From Coriobacteriia bacterium (GTDB taxonomy: Bacteria > Actinomycetota > Coriobacteriia > Anaerosomatales > Anaerosomataceae), in NCBI GenBank assembly GCA_030651765.1, contig JAUSBY010000011.1, positions 248,001 to 312,000 of the forward strand: a DNA stretch of 64,000 bases. Reading direction: 5' to 3'. The notes beneath the pieces are model-generated. The model was not told the origin of the DNA, did not search any database, and saw nothing but the letters and a program-made list of their open reading frames with translations. This document shows, one piece after another, positions 15,771 through 62,795 of the stretch (positions are counted from its first letter, which is position 1; each line of letters starts with the position of its first letter). A program made the position numbers and the translations under genes.

Positions 15771-15846
15771 GCCCCCATCGTCTAGCGGCCAAGGACTCCG
15801 CCCTTTCAAGGCGGCAACAGGGATTCGAATTCCCTTGGGGGCACCA
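15771..15846 (+). tRNA. tRNA-Glu (anticodon TTC), integration target
   Basis: 76 bases with CCA. Acceptor GCCCCCA pairs with TGGGGGC, anticodon loop CTTTCAA (TTC), T-arm GGATTCGAATTCC. The last 26 bases (15821-15846) recur at 62770-62795, so the gene is the attachment site of the mobile element, and insertion leaves this copy intact. Confidence 0.95.
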
Positions 15847-17149
15847 CATTCTCGCAGTTCAGAGGGGGTACGGCCTCTGATTTGGTGCCCGATTTGGTGC
15901 CCAATTGTGTTTCCACTGCGCCCAAGGCGCCGCTGAAAAGGTCGCCGATACTGTCTGCCGCAGCTCTCTGAGTGGCACGATCGGACCAGCAGTAAGTGTC
16001 CATCGTGTACGCCGATGAGTGATGGCCGGCAATCTCCTGGACGACCTTCGGGCTGTTGCCCTGCCTGAGCATGAGCGACAGCGCGGTGTGGCGCAGATCA
16101 TGGAATCGCGGCGCCACACGTGACGACTTCCTGAACTCCTGCCAGGCCCACTCAAAACGCGACGGCCACCACGGCTCGCCATCCTCTTCCGAGAACACCA
16201 TAGGGCCGTGTTCCAGTTGGTAGCCCTCGCCGGCGAGTTCCCGGCGCGCCCGGCGGTCCTCGTGTTCGTCTTTCGCGAACGCCAGCGCACTCACTAGAAT
16301 CGCGGGCATTTCGATGGTTCGGCGCGATCGCTCGCTCTTCGGGCCCTTCAACTCGTAGCCGTTGGCCCCCTCGTCCCACGCTCGCACGACCGAAATCGTG
16401 CCGTTCACGAGGTCGACGTCATCCCACGAAAGCGCCAGTATCTCGCCGCGGCGCATGCCCGTCGTGACCGCGAGTAGGACGGGCAGGTAGAGCCGATTCC
16501 CTTCCAGTGCGTTCAGAAGCTCGGCGACTTTGTGTGCGCCGAGTACCTCGACCCGATGTCGCTTGGGTCGAGGCAGCTCAACGCCGCGCTCGGTGTCAGC
16601 CGGGTTGAATGCAATCCGGTCCAACTTGACAGCCTGCGAGAGGGCCTTGTGTAGCACCGCGTGCGTCTGAATCACGGTGCGTTCCGAAAGCCCGAGTCCG
16701 CCGTTCGCCTTTGGCAGTTGCATGCGCGTGTACATCGCCTGGATGGCCTCCGCGCTCAACTTCTGAAGGCGCAGTGCCCCCAGCTCGGGCTTCAAGTACC
16801 GCCGAATGATTCCCTGATAGCCCTTGAGCGTCGAGCCCGCTCTTCCGATCGGGGCGTAGTTCGTTATCCACGTGTCGAGCCAATCGGCCACGCTCTGGCC
16901 TTCGGGCTTGACGTACATGCCCTGGTCGGCCGAGGTGAGCAGCCGTCTCATTTCTCGCTCGGCTGCGGACTTGGTGCCGGTGACGTAGTAGAAGTCGCGA
17001 TGGCGATTCCCGGCACCGTCTCGGCCCCGGTCAATGACGATCTTCCATCGATCGCGGACTACCACGCCATTTCTCTTGTAGGGCTGTACGTGACCCTTCA
17101 TACCCCACTGCCTCCAGACGCTGTTTGGCGGTGCATTCGTTTGCGACAT
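15806..17149 (-). CDS. int: tyrosine recombinase / integrase
   Basis: 447 residues: an N-terminal AP2-like/SAM-like part (about 20-200), then the catalytic domain. Catalytic residues are readable: Arg233 (TGMRRGE), His350 and Arg353 (HDLRHT), His376 (IAGHH) and nucleophile Tyr386 (MDTYCW). It catalyses site-specific insertion into and excision from the tRNA-Glu gene. The last 13 codons or so are read from the antisense strand of the tRNA-Glu 3' end, and the stop is inside the tRNA. The start overlaps the upstream zinc-finger gene by 52 bases on the same strand, so the two are probably co-expressed. Confidence 0.95.
   Translation of the reverse strand: MSQTNAPPNSVWRQWGMKGHVQPYKRNGVVVRDRWKIVIDRGRDGAGNRHRDFYYVTGTKSAAEREMRRLLTSADQGMYVKPEGQSVADWLDTWITNYAPIGRAGSTLKGYQGIIRRYLKPELGALRLQKLSAEAIQAMYTRMQLPKANGGLGLSERTVIQTHAVLHKALSQAVKLDRIAFNPADTERGVELPRPKRHRVEVLGAHKVAELLNALEGNRLYLPVLLAVTTGMRRGEILALSWDDVDLVNGTISVVRAWDEGANGYELKGPKSERSRRTIEMPAILVSALAFAKDEHEDRRARRELAGEGYQLEHGPMVFSEEDGEPWWPSRFEWAWQEFRKSSRVAPRFHDLRHTALSLMLRQGNSPKVVQEIAGHHSSAYTMDTYCWSDRATQRAAADSIGDLFSGALGAVETQLGTKSGTKSEAVPPLNCENVVPPREFESLLPP
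15821..15846. repeat. attL core repeat (26 bp)
   Basis: GGATTCGAATTCCC followed by TTGGGGGCACCA, the T-arm and acceptor 3' end of tRNA-Glu. Identical to 62770-62795. Bases on either side of the two copies differ, so the identity is limited to the att core. Confidence 0.9.
15879..15902. repeat. tandem 12-bp repeat, probable integrase arm sites (left)
   Basis: Two perfect copies of GATTTGGTGCCC in tandem, 33 bases inside attL and within the 3' end of the integrase gene. The same tandem pair occurs in the same orientation at 62642-62665, inside attR. In the excised circle the att core would be flanked on both sides by this pair, the arrangement expected of arm-type binding sites of a lambda-like integrase. 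Inference from pattern only. Confidence 0.55.
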
Positions 17150-24234: not shown

Positions 24235-24687
24235 ATGTCCAACAAGCGTCCACATCTGGGGAGTACGGGGGAGCCAAGGCGGCTGACGATCCGGCTGACG
24301 CCGGGGGACTATGACAGGCTCTCAGCATTGGCGGCCAATGAAGGCATCGCAATGGCAGCCAAGGGACGCGAGCTCATGCTCTCGGCGATGGATCCGCAGA
24401 TCTTCGGCGAGCGCTACCACGACGTCGAAGGCCTGTTGCGTGGCGTCGTCCGAGATGAGATGGCGACTCATTCGGAGCGTCTGCACAAGAGGCTCTACCG
24501 GATCGGCGGCATCACGGCTGCGATGGTGTTCTTCGTTCGCGACATTCTCGGCCAGGTGTTTGAGTTCACGCCGCAGGCAGTCACACAGCTCTGGCGGGAG
24601 GCCGAGGGCCACGGGTTCAAGTACATGGGCGCGAAGGCGCCCGAGCAGATGGCGGAGGAAGCCGCAGATGCAGGGAGAACGCCATGA
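24235..24687 (+). CDS. ribbon-helix-helix-like relaxosome accessory protein
   Basis: 150 residues. The N-terminal RRLTIRLTPGDYDRLSALAANEGIAMAAKGRELML resembles the DNA-binding domain of MobC/TraJ-type proteins; the rest is helical with a hydrophobic patch near 95-115. The ATG at 24235 fits, and the stop overlaps the relaxase start (ATGA). It probably binds oriT and recruits the relaxase. Confidence 0.72.
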   Translation: MSNKRPHLGSTGEPRRLTIRLTPGDYDRLSALAANEGIAMAAKGRELMLSAMDPQIFGERYHDVEGLLRGVVRDEMATHSERLHKRLYRIGGITAAMVFFVRDILGQVFEFTPQAVTQLWREAEGHGFKYMGAKAPEQMAEEAADAGRTP

Positions 24688-26204
24688 CGCTCGGCCCCCT
24701 CGTCGTCAAGGTGAGCTACGCCACGCCGAGCGCGAAGGACGGTGCGCATGCCGAATACATCGCCACACGCCCCGGCACGGACCTGAGCGTCACTCCAGAT
24801 TCGCTCGCGCGCATGGTGAGCCGGGATGTCTCCGACGACGCCACGTATACCCGCTACATCGCCGAGCGCCCCGGCGTGGTCGCTGACGGCGAGGCGCACG
24901 GACTCTTCGACGAGCAGGGCGTGCCAGACCTCAGTTCCGTCACCAGCGAGCTTGCGGGACTCACCCAGGCCCCGCTCTATCGCGTGATCGTGTCAGTGAA
25001 CCGGATTGATGCCGAGGAGTTGGGGCTGGACTCGAAGGCTCAATGGGAGCGTCATGTGCGGTCCAGCGTCGGTGCGTTGTCCGCGGCTACCGGGATTCCA
25101 CGCGAGAACGTGCGTTGGGTCGCAGCACACCACGACCCCGCAGCCGGCCATCCACACGTGCACATCATGGTTTGGGACAAGACCGACAGCCTCGCGTACA
25201 AGCGCGTCGGCCCGTCACATGGCGGCTCGGATGGTCACATCCCTGCTCCGCGGTTGAAGGCGCTTCGGGGGGCGTTCACCCGCGAGATCTACGGCGCAGT
25301 GCGCGAGGGCGTGTATGAGGCGAAGGGTCGCGCGCGCTCCGAGATCCGCACGTTCGGCACCACATCCCTCTCACTGGCCGTCGAGGAACGCCGGCGGATC
25401 GGATCGGGAATCGCCGTTCCGATGGTCTCAGGACTCACGCGCGATCTGGAGGCCTTGTCTCGCACACTGCCCGGGCGTGGCCGAGTAGCGTACAAGTACG
25501 TCTCACCCGAGACGAAGGCCGCAGCCGATCGGATCGTGGACAAGCTGATGTCGTCGGGGCCGATCGCCGAGCGCGCCAACGCGTATACCGACGCGGCTGT
25601 GGAGCTCAAGCGCCACCACACCGCCGATCCCGACGAACTCGCATCCGCCCGTGCCAGCGCCGGGGCGGATCTACGAGAGCGGCTGGCGCCCGAGGTGCTG
25701 CAGGCCGCCGTGAGCATCCAGTTGCTGAGGACGGCCGAGGGCATCATACGGACTGCTCCACTTGTTGTCCGCAACCACCTGCTCGAAGGGACGTCCGAGG
25801 CGACCCGCGTGTTCTACGCCCGTGCCCTCATGACCGCCCGGATCGACGAGAACACCGCAGCCAGCGTGATGGTCAAGGCGTGCCGGGGCGACGAGCCGCT
25901 CGAGGCCACGGCGACCCGCATCGCAGCCGTCTTCGCGGAGGATCAGCCGCTCCGCCCATCCGAGTGGGCTGCATGGCGCAACGAGAACATGCTGCCCGAG
26001 CTCTCGGCGGGGCTGCAACAGTCCGCAGCAACGCTCCACCTGCTGGAACAGGTGTCACGGCATCTGTCTTCACGGAGTTCGCCGGCGGTTCAGGAGATTG
26101 CCCGAATCGACTGGGGCAGGCTCGGACGAGCCACGCGCCCGAAAGGACGTACGGACGGGGGTCGCGGCATGACGCTCGATCCACGCGACGGCCTGTCGTC
26201 ATAG
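24684..26204 (+). CDS. conjugative relaxase, MobP-like
   Basis: 506 residues. The N-terminal domain has YIATRPGTD (Tyr27, a candidate nicking tyrosine) and a metal-binding cluster His156-x-His158-x-His160 in GHPHVHIMVW, the HUH signature. The Tyr-first layout and the YIATRPG motif recall the MobP3-type relaxases of Gram-positive elements. Its job is to nick oriT, become covalently linked to the strand and pilot it to the coupling protein. The C-terminal 250 residues are helical without a recognised helicase. Translationally coupled to the accessory protein upstream. Confidence 0.85.
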   Translation: MTLGPLVVKVSYATPSAKDGAHAEYIATRPGTDLSVTPDSLARMVSRDVSDDATYTRYIAERPGVVADGEAHGLFDEQGVPDLSSVTSELAGLTQAPLYRVIVSVNRIDAEELGLDSKAQWERHVRSSVGALSAATGIPRENVRWVAAHHDPAAGHPHVHIMVWDKTDSLAYKRVGPSHGGSDGHIPAPRLKALRGAFTREIYGAVREGVYEAKGRARSEIRTFGTTSLSLAVEERRRIGSGIAVPMVSGLTRDLEALSRTLPGRGRVAYKYVSPETKAAADRIVDKLMSSGPIAERANAYTDAAVELKRHHTADPDELASARASAGADLRERLAPEVLQAAVSIQLLRTAEGIIRTAPLVVRNHLLEGTSEATRVFYARALMTARIDENTAASVMVKACRGDEPLEATATRIAAVFAEDQPLRPSEWAAWRNENMLPELSAGLQQSAATLHLLEQVSRHLSSRSSPAVQEIARIDWGRLGRATRPKGRTDGGRGMTLDPRDGLSS

Positions 26205-26288
26205 AAGAACGTTCCCGGAAAGGTACTGCCAATGGCTGCTCGGTACGCTCGGTTGGGCGCTGCCGGCGAATCGATGAGGGGGATACGG

Positions 26289-27089
26289 ATGCACAGAACG
26301 ACCAGGCGGATCGCCATCGCCTCGCAGAAGGGCGGTGTCGGGAAGACGACGACCGCATGGAACGTCGCGGCAGGACTCACCGCCAAGGGACGAGACGTGC
26401 TCGTCGTGGATCTCGACGGACAATGTCACCTGACCACGGGTGTGCTTGGCACGCCACCCGCGCGCAGTCTGTGGGATGTGTTGGCGGGCAACATGCCTGC
26501 TCACGATGTCGTTGTGCTAGGGGCGGAGTTCGACCTGCTGCCCGCTTCCGAGATGCTTTCGCGCGCGGACTACGACCTCGGTGGCCGGCCGGGGCGCGAC
26601 TTCCTCCTCTCCCGGGCTCTCAAGGGTCGCCGTGATCCCGCAAGCAACACCCGCGCTCCGGGTGTGCAGGACGACTACGACTACATCATCCTGGACTGCC
26701 CACCCTCTCTCGGCATCATGACGGCCAACGCGCTGGCATATGCCAGCGAGGTCATCGTGCCGGTCACCCCCGGGCTCTTCGCCGTCAGCGGCCTCGGGAT
26801 GCTCGGTTCTGTCATCGCAGAGACCATCGACGCGGGCGTCAACGAGGATCTGGCGATCTCCGGAATCCTGCTCACCCAGTACGAGAACGGTACCGGCCTG
26901 CACCGCAGCATCGCGTCTGCCGTTGAGGAGCAGTTCCCCGGACTGCTCTACCCGCTCGCAATCCGCAAGAACGTGGCTGTGGGTGAGGCCCATGCCGAGG
27001 GTCGAAGCGTGCTGTCCTACGCGCCGAAGAGCCACGGTGCGGCCGACTACACCGAACTCGTCGAGCACCTAATCAGGCAGGAGGGTTAG
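26289..27089 (+). CDS. parA: ParA-family partition ATPase
   Basis: 266 residues from the ATG at 26289, preceded by GAGGGGG; the longer frame is not needed. Deviant Walker A KGGVGKTT (Lys14, Lys19), VVDLDGQ near 40, ILDCPPSLG near 135. With ParB two bases downstream it would stabilise the excised circle before re-integration. A degenerate copy of the shared-type promoter (CTGCCA, 17 bases, TCGGTT at 26226-26254) lies upstream but has a poor -10. Confidence 0.93.
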   Translation: MHRTTRRIAIASQKGGVGKTTTAWNVAAGLTAKGRDVLVVDLDGQCHLTTGVLGTPPARSLWDVLAGNMPAHDVVVLGAEFDLLPASEMLSRADYDLGGRPGRDFLLSRALKGRRDPASNTRAPGVQDDYDYIILDCPPSLGIMTANALAYASEVIVPVTPGLFAVSGLGMLGSVIAETIDAGVNEDLAISGILLTQYENGTGLHRSIASAVEEQFPGLLYPLAIRKNVAVGEAHAEGRSVLSYAPKSHGAADYTELVEHLIRQEG

Positions 27090-27091
27090 GT

Positions 27092-28045
27092 ATGGGGCGA
27101 CCGAGGATCGAGCGCGGCGCAAAGCAGGACGATGTGATCAGAGATCGCGTGGCGGCCGTGGCCGCACGCGCTGCCCGGCCAACCACTCTGCTCGGCCAGA
27201 AGACGGACAGGTCGGTCACGGTGCCGTTGGACCAGCTGCACCCGGACCCGCGCAACAACGAAGTGTTCGAACTCGGAGGCATCGAGGATCTAGCGCGTGA
27301 CATCGAGGCCAACGGACTGGCCCACTACCCCGTCGTGCGTCCTCACCCCGAGTTCGAGGACGAGTACATGATCGTGGCCGGCCATCGCCGCCATGCGGCG
27401 CTTTCACTGCTCGTCGAGCAGGGACATGGCGCGCGCTTCGGGCAGGTGGCCTGTCACCTCGTGCCATCCGATGACTTGGACTCCGGCGTCCTCATGCTCA
27501 CGACCAATGTTCGGCAGCGCGACCTCTCGACGCTGGAGCGCATTCACACGATCACCTTTGCCCAGAGTCTTGTCGCCGAGCTTCGCGAGGCGGGGCGCCT
27601 TGAGGTGGGGACGACCACTGACGGCAAGATCGCCGAACTCGTCAACCTCGCGCCACGCACCGTCGCCTACTACCGTTCGCTGACCAAGCTCATCGAGGGC
27701 CTTCGCGCATTGCTCGATGAGCGCCGTATCACGTTCACGACGGCACGCGAGCTCGCGCAGCAGCCCATCGATATCCAGGAACGCGTGTTGGCACAGATCG
27801 AGGCGGGTGAGGACGGCGCGCTAAGCGGTGCGCAGGTCGCCGCGCTGACGGAGTCGGCGTCGGCCAAGGAGCCGACCCCGCCCAAGGTTCCCGATGCGGG
27901 GATTCTCGTCAGCGCGCTTGAGCGTGCCACCAGCAAGATGCTGCGTTTCGATGCTGCCACGCCGGATGAGCTCGACCCGTTCATTGGCCGCATCGCCGCC
28001 ATCGTTGAACGCCTGGACGCCATCACCGCCAAGAGAGGGGTCTAG
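27092..28045 (+). CDS. parB: ParB-family partition protein
   Basis: 317 residues. ParB N-terminal domain (VTVPLDQLHPDPRNNEVFE, GLAHYPVVRPH, and CTP-binding-loop-like AGHRRHAALSLL), then the HTH domain (GKIAELVNLAPRTVAYYRSL). No classical parS (TGTTTCACGTGAAACA) was seen in the element, so its binding site is unknown. In an operon with parA. Confidence 0.9.
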   Translation: MGRPRIERGAKQDDVIRDRVAAVAARAARPTTLLGQKTDRSVTVPLDQLHPDPRNNEVFELGGIEDLARDIEANGLAHYPVVRPHPEFEDEYMIVAGHRRHAALSLLVEQGHGARFGQVACHLVPSDDLDSGVLMLTTNVRQRDLSTLERIHTITFAQSLVAELREAGRLEVGTTTDGKIAELVNLAPRTVAYYRSLTKLIEGLRALLDERRITFTTARELAQQPIDIQERVLAQIEAGEDGALSGAQVAALTESASAKEPTPPKVPDAGILVSALERATSKMLRFDAATPDELDPFIGRIAAIVERLDAITAKRGV

Positions 28046-29140: not shown

Positions 29141-29449
29141 ATGCTTCCCAGCCGCCGCCCGCGCCTGCTCGCGCAGCGCCGTGAGGGAGAGGCCAGCGCG
29201 GCACGCGCCGCCGAAGACGAGCGGGCCGAGAGACTCAAGGCACGCAAGGTTGCCGAGGCGATCGAGCGCGACCGTGCGCGCAAACGCAGAGCCGCCAGCC
29301 CTCTCGCGCGAGCCATTGAGACCGCTGGCGGCTGGGTCCTATCGATTCTTGGCGCGCTCGCTGTTTCGCTCGCTCTTACATGGCTGCTTCGCCACCCCCA
29401 AGAGCTCGACTCGCTGATAAGCGCGGTGCGGTCGATTCTGCGGCGCTGA
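29141..29449 (+). CDS. single-pass membrane protein with charged N-terminus
   Basis: 102 residues. The first 60 are very rich in Arg, Glu and Ala (probable coiled coil), then one hydrophobic helix (WVLSILGALAVSLALTWLL). Starts 2 bases after the CpaE-like gene stop. Unknown family; probably part of the transfer envelope module. Confidence 0.6.
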   Translation: MLPSRRPRLLAQRREGEASAARAAEDERAERLKARKVAEAIERDRARKRRAASPLARAIETAGGWVLSILGALAVSLALTWLLRHPQELDSLISAVRSILRR

Positions 29450-29526
29450 GCACAAAGTCAGAGACGGTCAGAGCGTTGACGTACGATTCCGTTCCGAACG
29501 TCGGGCGGGCTCGGGGAGGGATCTCA

Positions 29527-30447
29527 TTGCGGTTCATTCGCGCAGGAGTCGCCACAATGGTCGCGGCGCTGATCTTCTGCGCGCCTGCGTTCGGCGCGGG
29601 TGGGTTGGTGACCCGCGAGGTCATCGGTGTGGCAGAGCCCGACGATGCGCTGTTCGCGCCGTCGGTCGATGAGAGCGGCACGGTCTATGTGCTCGACACG
29701 ATCGAGTGGACCGAGCGTGTCGAACGCGACCGGAGCGTCTGGCACGAGGTCGAGTACGACTTCGGCGCGCAGGTGGGCAAGGTGGAGCCCCCGGCGACGC
29801 TCGCCGCGCTCTACCACGACCGGGTGACGGGGGTCACGGTCGACGCGTCGCTCCGCTTCGAGCGGTTGGTGAGCGCCGGTGCGTCGACACGCGGTCGGGA
29901 GATCGAGGTCTTCGTTCACACGAGCTACGACACGGCGGCCTACGAACTCGCGCCGGGGGCGCTGGCTCGCTTCGATGCGCCAACGCCACAGATCTCGGGC
30001 GTTGAGGTCTCGCAGGCGCTCCTCAAAGCGCTTCACTACGACCCTGCGGTCTACCGGCTGGTCGAGGCCTCATGGACGGGAACAGCGCACAAGGAGGGGG
30101 ACAAGACCGTCCGCGAGGCGAACTACACCGTGGAGCGGGTCGCCGAGGTGCAGCGGGCGGTCTACGGCGGGGACGTGGCCCTGCCGGACGTGCTCGTCCA
30201 TGACGGGATCGCCACCTACCGCGCTCCGACACCGATGGAAGTCGTGACGAAGGGCGCCGCCGAAGTTGTTGAGACGGTTATAGATGACCCCACGTCGCTC
30301 GTGCCGTGGATTGTGGCTGGCGGCGTCGCCGCGACGACGGCCCTGGGAGCGATCGTCTACTGGCGGCGGAGACGCCGTCGGGCGCTCGACGAGGATGACG
30401 CCAGCTTGGAGTCCGGTGACGCTGAAATGGAGGGTGAAGATGGCTAA
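29527..30447 (+). CDS. exported, C-terminally anchored protein
   Basis: 306 residues from a TTG at 29527, chosen because GGGGAGGG lies 7 bases upstream and the product then begins with a clean signal peptide (RFIRAGVATMVAALIFCAPAFGAGG). A beta-rich extracellular part of about 240 residues follows, then one hydrophobic helix (VPWIVAGGVAATTALGAIVYW) and an Arg-rich cytoplasmic tail. No LPxTG. It resembles surface-exposed mating-channel accessory proteins in layout only; no family recognised. Confidence 0.65.
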   Translation: MRFIRAGVATMVAALIFCAPAFGAGGLVTREVIGVAEPDDALFAPSVDESGTVYVLDTIEWTERVERDRSVWHEVEYDFGAQVGKVEPPATLAALYHDRVTGVTVDASLRFERLVSAGASTRGREIEVFVHTSYDTAAYELAPGALARFDAPTPQISGVEVSQALLKALHYDPAVYRLVEASWTGTAHKEGDKTVREANYTVERVAEVQRAVYGGDVALPDVLVHDGIATYRAPTPMEVVTKGAAEVVETVIDDPTSLVPWIVAGGVAATTALGAIVYWRRRRRRALDEDDASLESGDAEMEGEDG

Positions 30448-31144
30448 GCACCCGATACTGATCTCTGCTGTTCTCACCGCGCTCGTGTGCGGTTGTGTTG
30501 GCGTGGTCGCCTCATGGAGCGGGCCCGATGCCGGGCGCGCACAGGCGGCTGCGGATCCCGCATCCTCCGGGGTTGCTGGCTATAGCGTGTACTGGGACGA
30601 GTGGCCGGATACGGCGGCAGCGGCTCCTGCCGAGGTGGCCGAGGCCACCGAGCCTGTCGCAGTCGTCGCGGCGCCCGAAACGTCGGTCCCTGCGGGCGAG
30701 GGCGGGTCTGCGAGCTCACCGGGCAAGACGACTACCCCGAGTCCGAGCAAACCCGCTCCGACCGCTGCGCCAACACCTGCGCCCGCACCTGCACCTGCGC
30801 CGGCCCCTCCACCCGCTCCTGCAGCACCCGAGGTCGTCGGCGGGTACGGCGCGTCAATCGCGAGCTACATCAACCCGTCGGCGACCTATGACAGCACGCT
30901 CCAAAGCCAGTGCATCGCCCAAGCGAAGCGCATGGCGCTCGCCGGGGCGCTATCGCACTCAAGCTACGCGCCGGAGAGCTGCGCAAGCTTCGGTGACGGC
31001 ATGACGGCGCTCGGCGGGGGTGGGGGAGGCGTGGCCGGCGCTCTCTACGGTCACTGTCCGCAACTCGGCTCATGTTCACGCCTCGGCGTGGGACTCGTGC
31101 TCTACAACGGTACGCTCTGGGCTGTCGTGCAGGGCGGCGAGTAG
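30440..31144 (+). CDS. secreted protein with Pro/Ala linker and CAP-like C-terminal domain
   Basis: 234 residues from the ATG at 30440. N-terminal signal segment (ILISAVLTALVCGCVGVVA, with Cys residues that might allow lipidation), an acidic/Ala region, a Pro-Ala repeat linker (about 115-145), and a C-terminal globular domain with QCIAQAKRMALAGALSHSSYAPESC. That pattern resembles CAP/SCP domains (A..MA..G.LSHS), though short. Located just before the adhesin-sortase gene, so probably a wall-spanning surface protein. Confidence 0.6.
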   Translation: MAKHPILISAVLTALVCGCVGVVASWSGPDAGRAQAAADPASSGVAGYSVYWDEWPDTAAAAPAEVAEATEPVAVVAAPETSVPAGEGGSASSPGKTTTPSPSKPAPTAAPTPAPAPAPAPAPPPAPAAPEVVGGYGASIASYINPSATYDSTLQSQCIAQAKRMALAGALSHSSYAPESCASFGDGMTALGGGGGGVAGALYGHCPQLGSCSRLGVGLVLYNGTLWAVVQGGE

Positions 31145-31147
31145 CCC

Positions 31148-33847
31148 ATGACCGCACGCCAGCTCACCTCACGCGCGCTCCTCGTGCTCGTGCTGCTGTG
31201 CGGGTCGGCAGTCGGCCTGCCCGGCGCCGCTTCGGCGGCCACCGTGTCGACGGGCGGTGCGGGGACGTCGTACTACGATGCCTACTACTCGGGCTCATGG
31301 CACGATCTGCAGACGCCGCCGCACACGGTCGACGGTCAGATCGCCTACTGTCTCGAGCAGGCGAAGGACTTCCCTATCAACAACTCGACGTACGGTCTGT
31401 TCGACGCGGCGGCGCTCTACAACTTCAACACGTACGTTGGTTTGCAGTCCATTCTTCACCGGGGGTACCCGTACGTGACCCCCGCCGGTCTCACCGCGAC
31501 CCAGGCGCGCTACGCCACCGCGAACGCCATCCGCGCATGGATGCGCGAGGCGGCCGGCGTCGGATACGTGTTCATGGACATGAGCACATACACGCAGGAC
31601 GCTGGGACGTGGTCGCGTTTGCGGCCAGCTTCGGGCCTCGCGGGATCCGAGCAGATGTTCCGCTGGACGATCGACCTCGTGACCGGCGCGCGCAACCGCG
31701 TGCTGCCGGCCCGGAGCGTGAGCGCCGCGGCCATCACGCTCCGACCGAACGCGGACTACACGCGGCTTGTCGGCCAGACGACTGTCTCCTTCAACGATCT
31801 CAACGGCTACTACACCGTCGACGGACCGCCGGGTGTGTCGCTCTCGGGGTACACAGGCGGCAACGGCGACGTGTTGACGGTCTCAGTGCCATGCACGCCC
31901 GCCTGGATCGGTCAGTCCGTGGCGCTCACGCTCTACGCCTACGACAGTCGGGTCCCAGCAAACATCTTCTACTACGCCCCTGGTGACACGTCGTATCAGC
32001 GGGTTGTGTCTGCCCAGGCCTCCAGCTTTCAGGTCTCGGCTTCGGCTGCAGTCCCCGTTGGGTCTGGCTCCGGTGCCTTGCGAATCACGAAGACCGATGT
32101 GGTCGATGGCGCGCCGCTAGACGGCGCTGTCTTCGAACTCCTCTGGAACAGCACCGTCGTGGCTTCGGGCACGACAGACGCCGCAGGGGATCTCACGTTT
32201 ACCGGGCTTGCTCCTGGCACCTGGACGGTCAGAGAGCAATCTGCTCCGCAAGGCTACCTGCTTGACGTCACGCCGCACTCAGTCGCGGTGCCCGATGGTG
32301 GCACCGGCACGATCGGACTCACGAACGAACGTGCCTTGCGGCCGGTCCGTGTGCTCAAGGCAGGGGAGGCTGGCGAACCCCTCGCAGGGGCTGTCTACGA
32401 GATCCGCGAGGAGGGGGGCAGCGTCGTCGCCACACTCACCACGAACGCCGACGGCACGGCCGAAAGCGAGCCTCTGCAGTTCGGCGACTACGAGCTCGTC
32501 GAGACTGTCGCCCCCCTCGGACACGTGCTCGATCCCACCCCGTACGCGTTCACCATCGACCGGATGACGCCGGTCACGCTCGAGATCTCGCGCATGGACG
32601 TCCGCGCTCGTGGCACAGTCCGGATCGAGAAGCGCTCTGACGGGCAAGACGCGCGGCTTCTGCCGGGCGCGGTCTACGAAATCTGGCGCGTCCGCGACAC
32701 ATCGCCGCTTGTTGCACCGTTCGACCCAGCCGAAGACCCGACGGACCCGGTTGCCACTCTCACGACCGACGCCCAGGGTGTCGCACGATCCGAGTTGCTC
32801 GAGTACGGGTGCTACTACGCGGTCGAGACGACCGCGCCCGTCGGTCACGCGCTCAATCCCACGCGTCACTTCTTTGAGATCCGCGAGGACGAGGCCGTGA
32901 TCTCCCTTGAGCTCACTGACGACGTTCTGCCGGTGAACCATGGCGGGGTGATGCTGCGGTACCGGAACATCTGGGATGGCACGGAGATCGCCAAAGCATG
33001 GGGGTACAACGCTGAGATCGGCACCGAGTACATGTCGCGTGTCCGGGCCGAAGGCCTCGACAAGATGCCGATCGAGGGCTTCTCGTACGTGACAGCTGAC
33101 TACGCACCCTATACCGAGCTCGTCGACGGCAAGCTGCTGGTCACGTACTGGTACCGACAGACCCTTTCCGGGGACTGGCTGAAGGTTCGCACCGGCGATG
33201 ACGGCCGGGCACGGCTCACGGCGAAAGACCGCGAGGCCTACGGGCTGCTCTCGGATGCTGAGCTCTACTCCCGGCTCCTCGAGGCGAAGGCTGCGAACCC
33301 GGACGTGATCGGCTACCTCTCGATACCCGGCACCGACCTCCATGAGCCCGTGGTGCAGACGACGGACAACGTGAAGTACCTCACACACGCGGCGGATGGC
33401 GATGTCGATGCGCGGGGCGCGATCTTCGCCGACTACCGCTCGCCGCGCTATGCGGGCGACAGCTCGCGGGCGACGCTGCTCCACGGTCACAACATGCGGG
33501 ACGGCTCGATGCTCGGCGTTCTCGCCTCATATGGGGACGCGGACTTCTGGGCGGCTCATCCCTTCATCCAGTACGTTGATGCAGCCGGCAACGGCGGGAC
33601 GTGGCTTGTCTACTCGGCGCGTGTGGCCGATGGCTCCGACGACGCGTTCGCGTTCCCAGTCATGCGGCCGTACTCGGATCGCATTGCGCGCTGGGCGGAT
33701 CGCTCGATTCTGGATCCAGGTTTCCGGCCGGATCCTGCCGGACGTACGCTCACGCTCTCCACGTGCGCGTATCACGTTGAGGACGGCAAGTTGCTTGTTC
33801 ATGCGGAGCTGATCGAGGGTTACTCGAGCAGTGACGCCGACGACTGA
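31148..33847 (+). CDS. thioester-domain / SpaA-repeat adhesin fused to a class-B sortase
   Basis: 899 residues, with parts in order. Signal peptide 1-30 (cut after AASA). A thioester (TED) adhesin domain follows, with Cys68 in GQIAYCLEQ and Gln119 in TATQARY, the pair that forms an internal thioester in surface adhesins. Three Cna-B/SpaA-like beta repeats begin near 309, 396 and 487, each with a KTD/KAG/KRS-type strand and a GAVFEL or GAVYEI strand. An uncharacterised region spans 590-690. A C-terminal class-B sortase domain starts near 705, with His779 or His781 (LLHGHNM) and Cys873 (LSTCAY). The residue 8 after the Cys, normally Arg in the class, is Lys881. It has no LPxTG and no C-terminal anchor helix. 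It is the last gene of the relaxase-partition-surface operon, suggesting a role in recipient contact. Confidence 0.85.
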   Translation: MTARQLTSRALLVLVLLCGSAVGLPGAASAATVSTGGAGTSYYDAYYSGSWHDLQTPPHTVDGQIAYCLEQAKDFPINNSTYGLFDAAALYNFNTYVGLQSILHRGYPYVTPAGLTATQARYATANAIRAWMREAAGVGYVFMDMSTYTQDAGTWSRLRPASGLAGSEQMFRWTIDLVTGARNRVLPARSVSAAAITLRPNADYTRLVGQTTVSFNDLNGYYTVDGPPGVSLSGYTGGNGDVLTVSVPCTPAWIGQSVALTLYAYDSRVPANIFYYAPGDTSYQRVVSAQASSFQVSASAAVPVGSGSGALRITKTDVVDGAPLDGAVFELLWNSTVVASGTTDAAGDLTFTGLAPGTWTVREQSAPQGYLLDVTPHSVAVPDGGTGTIGLTNERALRPVRVLKAGEAGEPLAGAVYEIREEGGSVVATLTTNADGTAESEPLQFGDYELVETVAPLGHVLDPTPYAFTIDRMTPVTLEISRMDVRARGTVRIEKRSDGQDARLLPGAVYEIWRVRDTSPLVAPFDPAEDPTDPVATLTTDAQGVARSELLEYGCYYAVETTAPVGHALNPTRHFFEIREDEAVISLELTDDVLPVNHGGVMLRYRNIWDGTEIAKAWGYNAEIGTEYMSRVRAEGLDKMPIEGFSYVTADYAPYTELVDGKLLVTYWYRQTLSGDWLKVRTGDDGRARLTAKDREAYGLLSDAELYSRLLEAKAANPDVIGYLSIPGTDLHEPVVQTTDNVKYLTHAADGDVDARGAIFADYRSPRYAGDSSRATLLHGHNMRDGSMLGVLASYGDADFWAAHPFIQYVDAAGNGGTWLVYSARVADGSDDAFAFPVMRPYSDRIARWADRSILDPGFRPDPAGRTLTLSTCAYHVEDGKLLVHAELIEGYSSSDADD

Positions 33848-33939: not shown

Positions 33940-34012
33940 CCGTTCTCGCCCTCCAAGACTGTTCAGCGGGTATCCCCCGGCTACGAGGGTTCGAATCCCT
34001 CCCTCTCCGCCA
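33940..34012 (+). pseudogene. 3' fragment of a class II (Ser-like) tRNA
   Basis: A T-arm GAGGGTTCGAATCCCTC at 33985-34001 is followed by the acceptor 3' strand CCTCTCCG and CCA ending at 34012, preceded by a long variable-arm-like stretch. The 5' half (GGAGAGG...) is absent and no anticodon stem closes, so this is not a functional tRNA. It lies at the border between the transfer module and the cargo. It may be an old attachment site; no second copy is seen near 46.5 kb. The surrounding 33848-34111 is otherwise gene-free and very GC-rich. Confidence 0.6.
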
Positions 34013-34111
34013 GAGAGAGTCTAGACGAGGGCCCGCTTCCGGACTTGGAGGCAGGCCCTTCGTGCTCCAGCCGGCTAGAGATGACGACGGTCTCGACCCG
34101 GCGACTCTTGA

Positions 34112-34229
34112 GCAAGGATTGCTTGCGAGAATCTGATGTCATACTGATGACCGATGCTGCATGGCACGCGGATTGCAAGATATTCTTGCGAAATGGGGTA
34201 TCATGATCCTTGCGGTGTGCGCCGCAAGG
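34112..34229 (+). promoter_or_regulatory. operator cluster upstream of the XRE/ImmA-IrrE gene
   Basis: Three inverted repeats built on CAAG/CTTG: GCAAG-gattg-CTTGC (34112-34126), GCAAGA-tat-TCTTGC (34175-34189), both followed by GAGA or GAAA, and CCTTGCGG-6-CCGCAAGG (34208-34229). The last ends 15 bases before the start codon. Likely autoregulatory binding sites of the HTH domain encoded downstream. Confidence 0.6.
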
Positions 34230-34244
34230 GGGAGTGTGACAGCG

Positions 34245-35955: not shown

Positions 35956-36151
35956 CGCTGATGCGATGCTCTTGGTGATGGGTCGTCCCTTGATCATGAC
36001 GCCGTCGATTCGCCAGTTCGCGTTGGACGTCTTGAGTTCGGCCACGTGCGTCGTGGCGCCTGGAGAGAATCCGAGGTCGGCGCGCATCTGACCCGTCGAG
36101 AGTGGACGGGTCGACTCAAGCGGTACCATAGGGCTACTTCATCGAGCAGTC

Positions 36152-36463: not shown

Positions 36464-36515
36464 CGACCGCTGTCTCGCAGCGAGTACGTTGCCAGATCGA
36501 GCATTGGAGACGCGA

Positions 36516-40267: not shown

Positions 40268-40283
40268 AAATGGGAACGGCGAC

Positions 40284-43259: not shown

Positions 43260-43266
43260 GGGGCAA

Positions 43267-46670: not shown

Positions 46671-47753
46671 CTACGGCGTCGGAGCCATCGCCGATGCCTT
46701 CCACGCCGGCCGACGAATCGACGCAATCGTCGAGCTCCTCGCTGACAGATCCGAGATCTTCACGACGTCGCCCGTGCGCGGCGCATGGACGTACTTGCCG
46801 CCGCCGATGTACATGCCGACGTGGTGGATGTGCCCCGCCTCCCAGAAAACCATATCCCCGGGCTGGATCTGCGACAGGCTGACGCTTGTGCCGAGGGTGT
46901 TCCACATGGAGGCTGTCGTGCCGCGTGCGGTGAAGCTCGTGTAGCGCCACATGATCCAGTCCGCTAGCCCGGAGCAGTCGAAAGTGTCCGGGCCGGTCGC
47001 GCCCCAGACGTACGGGCAGCCGAGGACGGACAGGGCGAGCCGCACCGGAGGGAAGTTGACCGCGACGCCTGACTTGTCGAGCTCGCCCAGTACCTCAGGG
47101 GTGAGTGCTGTCGCCCCGAGGCCACCGGCGCCGTTGAGTCCAGAGGCATCCAGCACCTGCCCGGTCTCGTCGAACGTGCCCAGGATGGCGAGGTAGCGCT
47201 CCGCGGCTTGCCCAGCCTCCGTGCCCGTGAACGCCGCGCCAGCCGGTGCGAACTTCGGCGCCAGGTCGGCGATCGGCGGGTATGAGCTCGTGGCGAGCAC
47301 GGTGCTCGTGCCCTCGGCCGTGTAGGTGTAGGCGATCGAGTGACGTACGAGGTCGTAGACGGCCTGTGGGTCTGCCTTCGTGAAGTCCTGGTCGCACTGG
47401 ATGGCCGACAGCGCCAAGAGGTAGCGCCACGTCGGGAGGTCAAGGTTGGTGTGCACTGTCTTGCCGGAGGGCGCCACGGCCGTCGCGTCGTCGATCGCGT
47501 CGTTCTGCAGCCGGTTCTCAAGATCGGCGTACGTCTTGATCTGCGCCGCTATCGCGGCCGGATCCTTCTGGTGCCCGAACAGGAAGGACGGCACGGAGGC
47601 GGCGAACGCACCTGCGAACGCCGTGCCCGTGAAGAGTGCCGCCACCAGCGCGATCCCCGCACCGATGAGAACCCTGCGCTCGATGGATTCCTTGTCGGCG
47701 ACGCCGCGGCCCACAGCTGCGGCGATCCGGGCGATCGTGATGGGTTCGGCCAT
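46671..47753 (-). CDS. NlpC/P60 peptidoglycan hydrolase of the transfer system
   Basis: 360 residues. An N-terminal membrane helix (LIGAGIALVAALFTGTAFAGAFA, about 28-50), a helical linker of about 170 residues, and a C-terminal NlpC/P60 domain with Cys in FDCSGLADW (about residue 260), His in HIHHVGMYIG (about 310) and a third polar residue in YVHAPR. It cuts peptide stems locally so the secretion channel can cross the wall. Last gene of the leftward T4SS operon, 10 bases after virB4. Confidence 0.88.
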   Translation of the reverse strand: MAEPITIARIAAAVGRGVADKESIERRVLIGAGIALVAALFTGTAFAGAFAASVPSFLFGHQKDPAAIAAQIKTYADLENRLQNDAIDDATAVAPSGKTVHTNLDLPTWRYLLALSAIQCDQDFTKADPQAVYDLVRHSIAYTYTAEGTSTVLATSSYPPIADLAPKFAPAGAAFTGTEAGQAAERYLAILGTFDETGQVLDASGLNGAGGLGATALTPEVLGELDKSGVAVNFPPVRLALSVLGCPYVWGATGPDTFDCSGLADWIMWRYTSFTARGTTASMWNTLGTSVSLSQIQPGDMVFWEAGHIHHVGMYIGGGKYVHAPRTGDVVKISDLSARSSTIASIRRPAWKASAMAPTP

Positions 47754-47763
47754 CCTGGTCCTC

Positions 47764-49632
47764 CTACGCCGTCCGCGACTTCTCGCTGCTCGTTGACAGG
47801 AGCTGCACCATCTTCGGCGTCCGCTTCACGTCGAGGATGCACTTGCGCTGTCCGACCATCAGCAGGCACCGGCCGACCGCCTTGCGCGCCACGGCGTCGG
47901 CCTCGGCACGCGAGAGGTCGTAGAGATCCACGATGTGCGCGAGCTCGCGGCCGTCGGCGCCGAAGACGACCTTCGTGCTGGCGTTGTCGAGTACCGCTCG
48001 GCCCTGGCGCTCGATTGCCGGGTCGAGGAAGTCGCTCACGTTCTGCGTGGCGACCATGAGCGCGCCGCCGTACTTGCGGATCCGCTTGGCGAAGTTCTTG
48101 ATCGCCTCCAGCGTTGCCGGCGTCTTAGGGTCGATGGCCAGGTGCGCCTCGTCCATAACGACGAGCAGGTGCTCGCCGGTATCGCGGTTAGCCTGGATCT
48201 CCCGCCACATCAGCTGCGTGATGAGGTGGTACTGCGCTGCGTACGTGGATGAGTCGGCTTCCTGCAGGGAGTGGGTTGAGAACACGAGCACATCGTTTCC
48301 GAGCGTGACGTTGGTTTGCCCGTCCCACATCAGCCCTCGTGAGCCCTCCGTGAGGTTCTTGAAGAACAGGTCTAGCCCCGCATAGGCCTCACGCGCGCCG
48401 GCCGAGAGCTCCGCGGCAGCGTGGACGCGCGAGGCGATCTGCTCGCGCAGGTCCGAAAGCGTGGGCCACTTCTCCAGGTGCCCGACGCTCGTGAGGTCCA
48501 GAGTCAGGCAGTGAGCCCGGTACAGCTCACGCACCTCGATCTCGAGGATCTCGCGCGTAGTGTAGTCGTCCGGCAGTTGCAGGGCGAAGAACGTCTTGAG
48601 GAACTCCAGGTGCCGCGCCACCGGATTGAAACGGCTCGCGTCAGCCTCTTCCTCGTCGTCTGCCACGGCCTCTGTGGCCCAGACCTCGAGTGGGTTGATG
48701 ATCGTCGCACCGCTGTTGCCGGCGTCGAGCCACTGACCGTCGATGCGGGCGCACAGCGCGCGATACTCGTCCTCCGGGTCGATGATGATGACCTTGGTCC
48801 CCGCCATGTACTCCATGAGGATGTCGAGCTTCATGAACGTGGACTTGCCGCCACCGGCGTTGCCGAGCACGACCATGTTGGCGTTGGAGCGATCGGCGAA
48901 GCCCGATGAGCCGAACCGCCAGCGATCGATCACCACGACGCCGCCGGTCGTGTCCAGCCCGTAGACCTTACCGTGGCCGTCGTTGATACCCGCTGCTGAG
49001 AAAGGTGCCGCCGCCGCCAGCGTGCTCGACGGCATGGGCATCGCGTAGAGCTCGTGCAGTCGCGCCGAGCGGTAGCCGTAGGGGCTCGAGTGCAGCATGG
49101 CGTCTTTGGTCAGGAACCACGGCCGCTGGGCGATGATCTGGTTGGCGGCGAGACGCCCCTGCACCTCTTTGACGCGCGCGGTCAGACCCTCGGCGCTCTC
49201 GGCGGTCACGATGAACGACACGACGGAATCGAACATCGCCTCGTTCTCGGCACCGGAGAGGTGCAGGAGTTCCGCGGCCTGGTCTCGCTTCGCCGAGGCC
49301 TGCATGCGCTCGTAGGCGCCCTTGTTGCGACTCTCGGCCTGGAAGCTCCACCCCGACAGGGAGTCGGACACGACACGGTTGAACTCGGCCGCGTTACGGC
49401 GCACCGCGTCGATGTGGACGGTGACACCGGGCAGGCGGATGCGCGACAGCCATTCGGCTGGTAGCCGCGCCGGGTACTTCGTCACCACGAGCACGGCCAT
49501 GTACTGATCGCCGAACCTACATGCGCTCTTGTCGGAGAAGTCGGCGATCACAGGAGCGATGAGCTCGCGCAGGCGCGTGTTCGGCAGAATCTGCGTGACC
49601 TGGCCCGCTACCGGGCCCTTGTTGCGTGCCAT
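47764..49632 (-). CDS. virB4: VirB4/TraE-type conjugation ATPase
   Basis: 622 residues. Walker A GNAGGGKST (Lys263), Walker B LLVVMDEAHLA near 490, and C-terminal NVSDFLDPAIERQGRAVLDNASTKVVFG typical of VirB4/TrwK. Cytoplasmic hexameric motor for pilus and channel assembly. The N-terminal VirB4 part is rather short here; the separate gene upstream (49652-50266) may supply it. Confidence 0.93.
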   Translation of the reverse strand: MARNKGPVAGQVTQILPNTRLRELIAPVIADFSDKSACRFGDQYMAVLVVTKYPARLPAEWLSRIRLPGVTVHIDAVRRNAAEFNRVVSDSLSGWSFQAESRNKGAYERMQASAKRDQAAELLHLSGAENEAMFDSVVSFIVTAESAEGLTARVKEVQGRLAANQIIAQRPWFLTKDAMLHSSPYGYRSARLHELYAMPMPSSTLAAAAPFSAAGINDGHGKVYGLDTTGGVVVIDRWRFGSSGFADRSNANMVVLGNAGGGKSTFMKLDILMEYMAGTKVIIIDPEDEYRALCARIDGQWLDAGNSGATIINPLEVWATEAVADDEEEADASRFNPVARHLEFLKTFFALQLPDDYTTREILEIEVRELYRAHCLTLDLTSVGHLEKWPTLSDLREQIASRVHAAAELSAGAREAYAGLDLFFKNLTEGSRGLMWDGQTNVTLGNDVLVFSTHSLQEADSSTYAAQYHLITQLMWREIQANRDTGEHLLVVMDEAHLAIDPKTPATLEAIKNFAKRIRKYGGALMVATQNVSDFLDPAIERQGRAVLDNASTKVVFGADGRELAHIVDLYDLSRAEADAVARKAVGRCLLMVGQRKCILDVKRTPKMVQLLSTSSEKSRTA

Positions 49633-50866: not shown

Positions 50867-51754
50867 TCACGCCCTCGCGATTGCGAGGCGGGCGAACTCG
50901 AAGGTCGCCATGCGAGCCATCGAGCCGACGCCGCTCGGCGCGGCCTGGTGCGTCATCTGCCGCACGAATGCCGGAAGCGCAATCGTGCAGGCCATCAGTC
51001 CAGTCGTTGCGACGAACTCGTGGATGGGGTCGGTGCCGAACCCCGAGATCTTCAGCCCCGTCACGAGGCCGATGATCGTGAGGTTTAAGAGGTAGAGCTG
51101 CAGCGTCTGCGTGAACGCCAGCGTCAGAAGCTGACGGGTCCACGCCGCGAACAATGAGCGGTCAGGCGAGGCGAAGTTCAGCGCGAGCACCGGCCCGATG
51201 AACACCATGATCGCGAGTTCCACCGAGCGTTTCGTGACTTGGAAGAAGATCACGATGAGTCCAATGCCGAGGAAGAGCATGACAACCGCCACGAGGAGCT
51301 GCCCGGTCGGGTTGTTTCCAGCCAGACCGATAGACGTGAGACGAGCCAGGACATCTGTCGCCTGCAGCGGGCTCGTTACCGCACCGGCCGCCGAGTTGGT
51401 CAGCACGTCGCTCGTGAGCTTGTTGCCAACGTCGACGGCCAGTGTGACCGCGAGCGGGATCGACCAGATGAGTGCAGCGGCGCCAGCGGCGCGCAGCAGT
51501 ACCGCGTCGAGCGGGTCACCGTCCTCGCCCGAGAGCTGCAGGATGTAGCGCGAATACACGTCGAGCCCGACCTTCAGACCGAGAACGGCGGTCGCGAACA
51601 CCTGCACCGTGGTCATGGCGTTCACGACCGGAGCCCAGTGGATCAGGCCGGCCGACAGGGTTCCGACGCTGATGAGCACCTTGGCGATCATGTCGAAGAA
51701 GCCGCTGAACAGGCCGATGAGCCAGCCGTTCCACCACGCGGTGATGGTATCCAC
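50867..51754 (-). CDS. VirB6/TrbL-like polytopic membrane protein
   Basis: 295 residues with six or so hydrophobic helices (for example LLVAVVMLFLGIGLIVIFF and LAIMVFIGPVLALNF) and a N-terminal WWNGWLIGLFSGFFDMIAKV segment typical of Gram-positive VirB6-like channel proteins. Inner-membrane translocation channel by family. 6 bases downstream of the VirB2-like gene. Confidence 0.8.
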   Translation of the reverse strand: MDTITAWWNGWLIGLFSGFFDMIAKVLISVGTLSAGLIHWAPVVNAMTTVQVFATAVLGLKVGLDVYSRYILQLSGEDGDPLDAVLLRAAGAAALIWSIPLAVTLAVDVGNKLTSDVLTNSAAGAVTSPLQATDVLARLTSIGLAGNNPTGQLLVAVVMLFLGIGLIVIFFQVTKRSVELAIMVFIGPVLALNFASPDRSLFAAWTRQLLTLAFTQTLQLYLLNLTIIGLVTGLKISGFGTDPIHEFVATTGLMACTIALPAFVRQMTHQAAPSGVGSMARMATFEFARLAIARA

Positions 51755-52125: not shown

Positions 52126-54105
52126 TCATCGGTCCGCGCCCACGCGATCGGCCGACGGTTCTCGCGTCGGTCCGGGTCGTGCTTGGCCCAGTAGCCGGAG
52201 TCCCTTGGGCAGGAGTTCCTCGCCCCGCCAGATGGGTGGCAGATCGATGTGGTGGACCTCACGCGCCTGCTGACGTGCGGCACGCACACTGCTCGCACGC
52301 TCCGGGTCGCCGAGTCCGAAGGCCCCGTCGACCGACAAGCGCGAGAGATCGGGTACGGGGAAGAGTGCCGCGTTCATCCCGCGGCGTATTACCAGCGCGC
52401 CGTCTACCTCAGGCGAGAGGCGGGCTATCTCGTCTGGCATGAGGACGGGTCGCGAAGTCAGCTTGTCGGAGCGCGAGGTCGTACGGCTCGCTCCTACGAG
52501 TCCTCCGCTATTGCGCTGGGACGACCCCCCGTCGCGCACCATGATCGTCTTCGTGCCAGTCAGGTCGCTGATGAGCCGGTGAGTCTTGCCCGAGGCGCTG
52601 GCCAGGTAGACGATCGCCGAGCAGTTGCCGCCGATGAGCGACGTGGCCTCCACGCGCCCCTCGGCATAGCGCTCGAGCTGCTCGATGCTCTGCACCACCA
52701 TGAGCAGCCGGATCCCGCGGCTCCGCGCCATCGTGAGCATGGAGACGAACTCCGGGATCTTGGGGATGTTGCCGAACTCCTCGAAGAGGATGTTCACCGG
52801 CACCGGGAGTCGTCCGCCGTGCGTGTTGGCGACCTTCACGAGCGCCTGGTAGAGCTGGCGCACGTAGATGGTGACCATGACGTTGTAGGCGTCGCGCTCG
52901 TCGGGCGTGATGATGAACACCGCCGACTTGCGCACGCCAACGTCGGCCAGGTTGTGCTCGGAGCGCGCGGTGAGTGCGGCCATGTTGCGGTTCGAGAAGA
53001 TCTTCAGCGCGTTGGCGGCCGTCGTGTACATGCTCGACGCCGTGTTGCCCGTGGCGAGGCTCGCGGCAAGGTAGGCGACCTTGGCCGGGTGTCGGTCGTC
53101 GAGACCCTCGATGATCTCTTTGAGCGGGTAGATCTGCTCCTGTCGCAGGCTGTCGGCGCGCACAGCGGTCCGCTCCTTGCCATACGTTCCGAGTGCTCGA
53201 TAAACGTTGAACATGTTGCGCGAGAGGGGATCGACGCCCTTGGGCTCGCTCGCGATCAGGAGGGCCGTGGCCGCGATGATCGCCTCTGCGCTGGCGTTCC
53301 AGAACGCCTCGTTGCCCCCATGGCCGCCGAGCTGCGCTGAGACGATCGTCTTGGCGAGCTCGTGGGCCATGTCTTCCGCATGCGCGATCTCGGCCGACCA
53401 GATCAAGTCGACGATCAGGTCGAGCGGCGACCACTGGACCGACCGGGAGGGATCTCGCAGGTCGATCGTGTCGACGCGGTAGCCCTTGGCCTCCAGGTGT
53501 TCGCAGGTGGACAGGTAGAGCTCGCCTTTGGGATCGGGGATCACCATCGACTCGCCGAGTTCGCCGAGCGCGTAGATGCTCGGGAGAACGATCCGGCGCG
53601 TCTTGCCCGAGCCGGTGGAGCCGATCACGAGCACGTGACCTTCGGAGCCGGAGAGGTAGTAGGTCTCCCTGCGGCCGCGCTCAGCTGGACGAGCGCCGAT
53701 GACGAAGCCAGAGACGCCGAGGGCCGGGGTCGTACCGGGCGACCAGGTGACCGCGGAGGTCTCGAGCGCCGCGGGGGTCATGAGGTTCGAGGTGCCATGC
53801 TCGCCGCGACCGGCGGTTCGCGGGATGCCGGCGACGACGCCGGTGCCGCTGGTGCGCGGGCGCATGAGGTGGCCGGAGATCCAGACCCACCAGGCCACGA
53901 TTGCTGTGATGAGGAGGAGGGAGAGGGCGAGGGTCGGCGGGCTGGTGATGGCGGACCACCAGCGTGCGAGGAGGGGGGTGTGCGCCCAGGTCGTGAACGG
54001 CGCGCTGAGGGCGGAGAGGGCTAGCGGGATGATGGCGGCGGCGAGGCACGCCACCGCGGCGGAGGACGCGACTCGCCAGATCTCGGGCTTCCGAGCCACG
54101 TGCAC
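52126..54105 (-). CDS. traG: type IV coupling protein VirD4/TraG
   Basis: 659 residues. Two N-terminal membrane helices (about 12-35 and 58-80), Walker A GSTGSGKT (162-169), and Walker B VNILFEEFGNIPKIPEF, plus the family-typical NTASSMYTTAANALKIFS. It receives the relaxase-DNA complex and pumps the strand into the channel. First gene of the leftward T4SS operon. Its promoter must lie in 54106-54280, shared divergently with the cargo gene at 54281. Confidence 0.95.
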   Translation of the reverse strand: MHVARKPEIWRVASSAAVACLAAAIIPLALSALSAPFTTWAHTPLLARWWSAITSPPTLALSLLLITAIVAWWVWISGHLMRPRTSGTGVVAGIPRTAGRGEHGTSNLMTPAALETSAVTWSPGTTPALGVSGFVIGARPAERGRRETYYLSGSEGHVLVIGSTGSGKTRRIVLPSIYALGELGESMVIPDPKGELYLSTCEHLEAKGYRVDTIDLRDPSRSVQWSPLDLIVDLIWSAEIAHAEDMAHELAKTIVSAQLGGHGGNEAFWNASAEAIIAATALLIASEPKGVDPLSRNMFNVYRALGTYGKERTAVRADSLRQEQIYPLKEIIEGLDDRHPAKVAYLAASLATGNTASSMYTTAANALKIFSNRNMAALTARSEHNLADVGVRKSAVFIITPDERDAYNVMVTIYVRQLYQALVKVANTHGGRLPVPVNILFEEFGNIPKIPEFVSMLTMARSRGIRLLMVVQSIEQLERYAEGRVEATSLIGGNCSAIVYLASASGKTHRLISDLTGTKTIMVRDGGSSQRNSGGLVGASRTTSRSDKLTSRPVLMPDEIARLSPEVDGALVIRRGMNAALFPVPDLSRLSVDGAFGLGDPERASSVRAARQQAREVHHIDLPPIWRGEELLPKGLRLLGQARPGPTREPSADRVGADR

Positions 54106-60324: not shown

Positions 60325-60330
60325 CTGGAC

Positions 60331-62762: not shown

Positions 62763-62769
62763 ACAACTA

Positions 62770-62795
62770 GGATTCGAATTCCCTTGGGGGCACCA
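62770..62795. repeat. attR core repeat (26 bp)
   Basis: Second copy of the tRNA-Glu 3' end, identical to 15821-15846 and followed by TAAAACC instead of CATTCTC. No tRNA 5' part precedes it. Confidence 0.9.

Follow-up and report, generated by a model that had tools for sequence, protein, structure and literature searches.

The stretch of DNA analysed here (the window, 64,000 nucleotides of a Coriobacteriia bacterium contig) carries what is apparently a complete integrative conjugative element (ICE), with a gene in its transfer operon that joins an adhesin and a sortase-fold domain in a single polypeptide (Table 1). An integrase at a tRNA, a relaxase (a weak match to MobL of 24.7 bits, under the cut-off of 28.5), a coupling protein and a VirB4-like ATPase, the set by which an ICE is recognised, are all present. 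The right end of the element probably lies at 62769-62798, where the 3' end of tRNA-Glu is repeated imperfectly. The fusion gene closes the relaxase-ParA-ParB operon and begins 3 bases past the stop of gene 30440-31144. The gene order is relaxase, ParA, ParB, unknown, small transmembrane (TM) protein, membrane protein, CAP-like protein and fusion protein. This full order is common to four long related loci (L001, L002, L003 and L005), and L006, L012 and L019 show parts of it. The placement of the fusion gene at the end of a relaxase-partition operon, made in an initial annotation of the window, thus agrees with the gene order both here and in related loci.

Table 1. Features of the element and of the fusion gene, in window coordinates.
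Feature	Position	Strand	Basis
tRNA-Glu, insertion site	15771..15846	+	imperfect 3' copy at 62769-62798
Tyrosine integrase, left end of element	15806..17149	-	profile
MobL-like relaxase (weak match), first large gene of operon	24684..26204	+	profile
ParA-type ATPase	26232..27089	+	profile
ParB-like protein	27092..28045	+	profile
Co-encoded membrane protein, C-terminal TM, juxtamembrane DPxS[LIF][VL]P; candidate partner	29380..30447	+	profile, motif scan
Secreted Pro/Ala-rich protein, CAP-like C-terminal half (by eye)	30440..31144	+	gene order, orthologues
Gene of TED-SpaA x3-linker-sortase B fusion protein, 899 aa	31148..33847	+	frame and profile matches
Signal peptide, residues 1-30, cleavage predicted by eye between ASA and AT	31148..31237	+	orthologues retain region
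Thioester-type domain (class II TED-like), residues 31-310	31238..32077	+	profiles; motifs from PMC4450167, PMC6194298
Cys68 codon (motif YCLE)	31349..31351	+	invariant 8/8
Gln284 (YQRVV), probable thioester partner of Cys68	31997..31999	+	invariant 8/8
SpaA/CnaB repeat 1, putative isopeptide K315-N393, catalytic E363	32078..32335	+	Pfam; invariant 7/7
SpaA/CnaB repeat 2, putative isopeptide K404-D484, E452	32336..32608	+	Pfam, PDB sequence match
SpaA/CnaB repeat 3, putative isopeptide K495-D591, E560	32609..32938	+	Pfam, PDB sequence match
Conserved linker domain, residues 598-690, MucBP-like by eye only	32939..33217	+	orthologue alignment
Class B sortase-fold domain, residues 691-890	33218..33817	+	profile, sequence, structure matches
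His781, catalytic His position, end of strand beta4	33488..33490	+	alignment, model
Cys873, catalytic Cys position, end of strand beta7	33764..33766	+	alignment, model
Lys881 at catalytic Arg position, start of strand beta8	33788..33790	+	alignment
NlpC/P60 protein of transfer module	46671..47753	-	profile
VirB4/TraG-type P-loop ATPase	47764..49632	-	profile
TrbL/VirB6-like protein	50867..51754	-	profile
T4SS coupling protein (TraG/VirD4)	52126..54105	-	profile

The content 3' of the fusion gene differs in every copy inspected. The window has a cargo slot after the fusion gene (34161-46539) with Hma-like helicase/methylase/ATPase defence genes and an ImmA/IrrE-HTH protein, and other restriction- or defence-like gene sets occupy the slot in L001, L002, L003 and L005 past about position 10700. 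A tRNA-Ser-like 3' fragment at 33962-34013, about 115 bases past the fusion stop and not found in the other loci, may mark the cargo insertion. A strong Gabija pair (GajB, E 8e-201; GajA, E 3e-259) lies at 58552-62442, near the right end of the element.

The 899 codons of the fusion gene are open throughout. Pairwise dN/dS values of 0.04-0.34 across all domains indicate purifying selection on the fusion protein, and the single uninterrupted frame of the initial annotation holds with selection in every domain. The signal peptide is the sole transmembrane-like segment of the chain. A scan of the chain found no LPxTG-type sorting signal with C-terminal TM segment and positive tail; the lone match to a sorting motif is IPGTD at residue 726, inside the sortase domain. 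The absence of LPxTG noted initially is thus confirmed. Sequence matches in the PDB were to class B sortases for residues 703-890 and to the Bacillus anthracis adhesin BaTIE for the stalk, and a Pfam scan gave no match to the linker domain (residues 598-690). The AlphaFold model of the full-length protein was poor (pLDDT 43) and usable in the SpaA part only.

The N-terminal 600 residues of the fusion protein match a class II TIE adhesin. Two Pfam thioester-domain models are near threshold in the window protein, PF08341 (22.1 bits vs a cut-off of 22, covering just positions 1-66 of the 102 of the model) and PF20610 (22.5 vs 27). A search of the PDB with an N-terminal profile found no match, and the AlphaFold model of this part was poor. 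The thioester domain of the initial annotation is therefore supported but weak for the window protein taken alone, and its score is above the cut-off in 6 genomes. Cys68, also named there, fits the [YFL]C-Phi-zeta motif found near the N-terminus of class II TIE adhesins. Its assigned partner, Gln119, is ruled out by the position and spacing of the published motif. In thioester domains (TEDs), the bond-forming Gln lies in a PhiQzetaPhiPhi strand motif ~170-205 residues past the Cys and not in the central TQ helix, whose motif TQxxPhiW does not occur in all TEDs and is dispensable (PMC4450167, PMC6194298). Gln284 sits 216 residues after Cys68 and 31 residues before the first isopeptide Lys, Lys315, in a motif that reads YQRVV in the window protein and LQRFL in the most diverged orthologue. 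The probable thioester partner of Cys68 is thus Gln284 and not Gln119. The three Cna-B/SpaA-like repeats reported for the stalk are found by PF17802 (E 2.6e-51). Their putative isopeptide residues (K315/E363/N393, K404/E452/D484 and K495/E560/D591) are invariant in 7/7 sequences; this and the other residue invariance counts come mostly from sequences 89-97% alike plus one (L019) at 57%.

This anatomy is close to that of known adhesins. BaTIE (PDB 6FWV) likewise has a TED and three CnaB domains, and its Gln266-Lys297 spacing of 31 equals that of Gln284-Lys315; unlike the fusion, it is anchored by an LPATG sorting signal and has no sortase in the chain. TIEpLS20, the product of gene 34 of the B. 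subtilis plasmid pLS20, is likewise encoded in a conjugation operon and lacks a sorting signal; this class II TED adhesin resembles the fusion in its signal peptide, its Cys68, its CnaB-type stalk and its lack of LPxTG and of a C-terminal TM segment (PMC8092201). Cys68 of TIEpLS20 is needed for efficient conjugation, in which a C68S mutant fails, and how the protein is anchored was stated to be unknown (PMC8092201). In contrast to the fusion, the C-terminal about 250 residues of TIEpLS20 are only similar to a toast-rack domain; it has no sortase domain, and its plasmid has no sortase gene. PrgB of pCF10 is also a mating-pair adhesin of a Gram-positive conjugative element, but has another head domain and is LPxTG anchored (PMC8092201, PMC12857230). 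The location in an ICE transfer operon and the resemblance to TIEpLS20 (PMC8092201) fit the earlier proposal of a conjugation-linked surface protein, with a probable thioester head.

The C-terminal domain matches NCBIfam TIGR03064 (E 5.8e-28; 97.8 bits, below the equivalog cut-off of 153.75) and Pfam Sortase (E 3.1e-7; 30.6 bits, above the cut-off of 26.6), and a phmmer comparison with the sortase B Lmo2181 gave 4.4e-20. An AlphaFold model of residues 691-899 was built from a 15-sequence alignment (pLDDT 81, pTM 0.83). Its best PDB fold match was C. perfringens SrtB (Z 21.6) and its top matches were class B sortases throughout (Z 16.5-21.6); class A and E sortases scored Z near 10-12 (class A about 11), and a viral structure library gave no match. 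The structure prediction that the initial annotation had put forward as a check thus returned a sortase fold, and the class B assignment is borne out by the fold and the presence of His781 and Cys873. Class B sortases (SrtB of C. perfringens, S. aureus, B. anthracis and L. monocytogenes) share the fold (Z 21), the His and the Cys, but are separate, N-terminally anchored enzymes with Arg, whereas the domain here is C-terminal in a secreted adhesin and has Lys. As it lacks the catalytic Arg, we file it as a class B sortase-fold domain and not as a canonical class B sortase.

The Lys was also correctly noted at the outset: Lys881 lies 8 residues past Cys873, the same spacing as that of Cys226 and Arg234 in C. 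difficile SrtB (PMC4371152). Among 63 distinct sortase sequences, the 10 fusion sequences all read His-Cys-Lys and 41 others His-Cys-Arg; the remaining 12 were not alignable at this position and were left out of the 41/41 Arg count. His781 and Cys873 are invariant in the fusion sequences. This alignment confirms the Arg-to-Lys change and shows it fixed in the fusion family and nowhere else. Of the other sortases, the nearest (53% identity) is a truncated relative without the adhesin part (L020:957-2121) that keeps Arg, suggesting that Lys is probably the derived state. That the catalytic Arg position matters is indicated by S. pyogenes SrtA, in which R216A abolishes activity (PMC9520033). The fixed Arg-to-Lys change could mean that the domain has lost its chemistry and serves, as a pseudoenzyme, only to bind the wall or a peptide at the end of the chain, and the lack of a sorting signal in the chain would agree with this. 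We consider it unlikely, as Cys873, His781 and their neighbours are kept without exception. Residues 865-881 are identical at 17/17 positions in the most diverged orthologue vs 67% for the rest of the domain, and pairwise dN/dS of the sortase domain is 0.09-0.24. The conservation of the active-site segments favours a domain that would retain chemistry over one that only docks, and a docking-only role would not need Cys873 and His781 to be kept.

In the comparison of genomes, which were largely metagenome-assembled, the fusion recurs in about 10 of the 69 genomes of the order. Its presence in many independent genomes rules out an assembly artefact, which the initial annotation had raised as a possible explanation. 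Nine loci in GTDB genome contigs hold the fusion protein or pieces of it, as do 12 of 61 relatives. Its sporadic occurrence across genera and families is what a mobile element would give. The seven full-length proteins (890-1017 residues) can be aligned over their entire length and differ mainly in SpaA repeat number; the orthologues are mostly close (89-97%), with only L019 at 57%. A linker-plus-sortase model matched 11/69 genomes of the order at E<=1e-20, two of them in the sortase part only (G050, the truncated relic, and G051, a separate sortase), and G020 holds an additional contig-end fragment of the adhesin part. Across 396 genomes of the phylum, the linker was matched in the window's own genome only. 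Sortase-domain matches were common in 398 genomes of the class; of the long sortase frames outside the order, none of the seven longest inspected was an adhesin fusion; they were either frames that run on through GC-rich DNA or fusions of a signal peptidase with a sortase. Four Coriobacteriia loci (L063, L064, L067 and L070) apparently encode such a fusion, in which one frame covers a class B sortase and, judged by eye, a SipW-like signal peptidase I. At L009:7835-8609, a piece of the fusion protein's sortase directly adjoins an integrase C-terminus with the 3' end of tRNA-Glu, in either an assembly chimera or a rearranged copy. The genome of the window has two further, separate sortases (L030 and L031), the first of which adjoins a surface protein ending LPDTA-TM. 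Plasmid and phage collections gave no match covering 80% of the chain, and IMG/VR gave no relatives with the full-length and fusion-family sortase alignments.

When IMG/VR was searched with a broader sortase alignment, fusions of a Bacillota type were found. In the L134 and L135 proteins (about 1635-1650 aa), one chain combines a TED (E 1.4e-11), SpaA stretches (nine in the L134 copy; L134:4343-9247, minus strand) and a sortase domain. Unlike in the window fusion, stalk and sortase are separated by a VPQTGDD sorting signal and two TM segments, and the class B sortase keeps Arg where the window family has Lys. The genes adjoin VirB4-like and CD1107-like genes, suggesting that they belong to conjugative elements of Bacillota type. 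L120-L122 and L127 (IMG/VR) hold single frames of about 1640-1650 aa with these parts, enzyme and substrate in a single chain. An unfused arrangement is seen on an Enterocloster bolteae plasmid (L112:1-9570): next to conjugation genes it carries an 11778-base gene for a SpaA protein, two small genes and, as a gene of its own, a class B sortase. As Bacillota-type conjugative elements also encode TED-SpaA-sortase chains, an adhesin and a sortase in one chain is a recurrent arrangement, and not unique to the window protein. The window family is the variant without a sorting signal, without a membrane segment between the parts and with Lys for Arg. The existence of fusions with intact sorting signal and Arg raises the idea that in the window family the sortase part is decaying, left over from a fusion like those of Bacillota type and with no present role. 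The truncated stand-alone L020 protein, a remnant of a similar element that lies about 430 bases from a tRNA-Val, would be in keeping with such decay. Selection and conservation disfavour it: the frame is open in all full copies, dN/dS is low, and no other domain of the most diverged orthologue is as well conserved as the sortase (71% vs 51-59%). We therefore regard decay as extremely improbable.

What the sortase domain could act on or bind was sought among the neighbouring genes. A motif scan of the called window genes found no canonical sortase substrate, and PF00746, the sole genome-wide check for sortase substrates, gave no match in the genome. The only sorting-signal-like C-terminus among the called genes is that of the membrane protein 29380-30447, whose true start is probably downstream of 29380. 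Bases 30286-30300 encode its DPTSL, and DP-x-S-[LIF]-[VL]-P precedes the TM segment in the window protein and in all readable orthologues (L001, L002, L005, L006, L012 and L019). Unlike a protein with a normal sorting signal, this membrane protein bears a long acidic tail. To our knowledge, DPxS is not a sortase motif. One possibility is an active transpeptidase in which Lys replaces Arg and which processes this membrane protein or another substrate in trans, the fusion serving co-delivery. The invariant His, Cys and 865-881 segment, the purifying selection on the sortase domain and the joining of like parts in Bacillota-type elements (with sorting signal in the chain and Arg kept) agree with this view; the lack of a canonical substrate and the effect of R216A in S. 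pyogenes SrtA (PMC9520033) speak against it, and we find it possible but doubtful.

We prefer, at roughly even odds (about 0.5), the interpretation that the fusion protein is a mating-pair adhesin of the ICE, kept on the donor envelope by its sortase domain, perhaps via the DPxS membrane protein. From sequence alone, a Cys68-Gln284 thioester in the N-terminal domain would bond covalently to the partner surface, and three isopeptide-locked CnaB repeats would form the stalk. By analogy with the TIE family, this would amount to covalent adhesion to the mating partner. The anatomy suggests that the sortase domain does the missing anchor's job in place of an LPxTG signal and membrane segment and, by engaging a peptide of the sorting type, would keep the secreted protein at the donor envelope. 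The best candidate for this peptide, speculatively, is the DPxS beside the membrane in protein 29380-30447, as a docking site or as a substrate. Points against this interpretation are that docking alone would not require Cys873 and His781 and that a sortase cleaving the partner in the usual manner would leave the adhesin itself without an anchor; the acidic tail and the DPxS motif of the partner also speak against it. A further variant, which we judge very improbable, is that the Lys881 amine takes the acyl group from Cys873 in a single-use, self-attaching sortase; in other class B sortases, the Arg at this position is about 6 Å from the catalytic Cys. If this were true, the adhesin would be permanently bonded to the processed partner, and covalent at both ends through its thioester and its own sortase.

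A search of the open-licence literature for R197K sortases, C-terminal sortases in adhesins and fused ICE sortases returned no relevant paper, which does not by itself prove novelty. The fusion family presents a natural Arg-to-Lys change at a position where a change to Ala abolishes the activity of a class A sortase. Together with the Bacillota-type proteins, it shows that conjugative elements of two different lineages unite adhesin and sortase in one chain, in two layouts. The work on pLS20 explicitly leaves open how adhesins without a sorting signal are retained on the donor (PMC8092201). The fusion family offers a testable answer, an in-chain sortase domain where the anchor would be.
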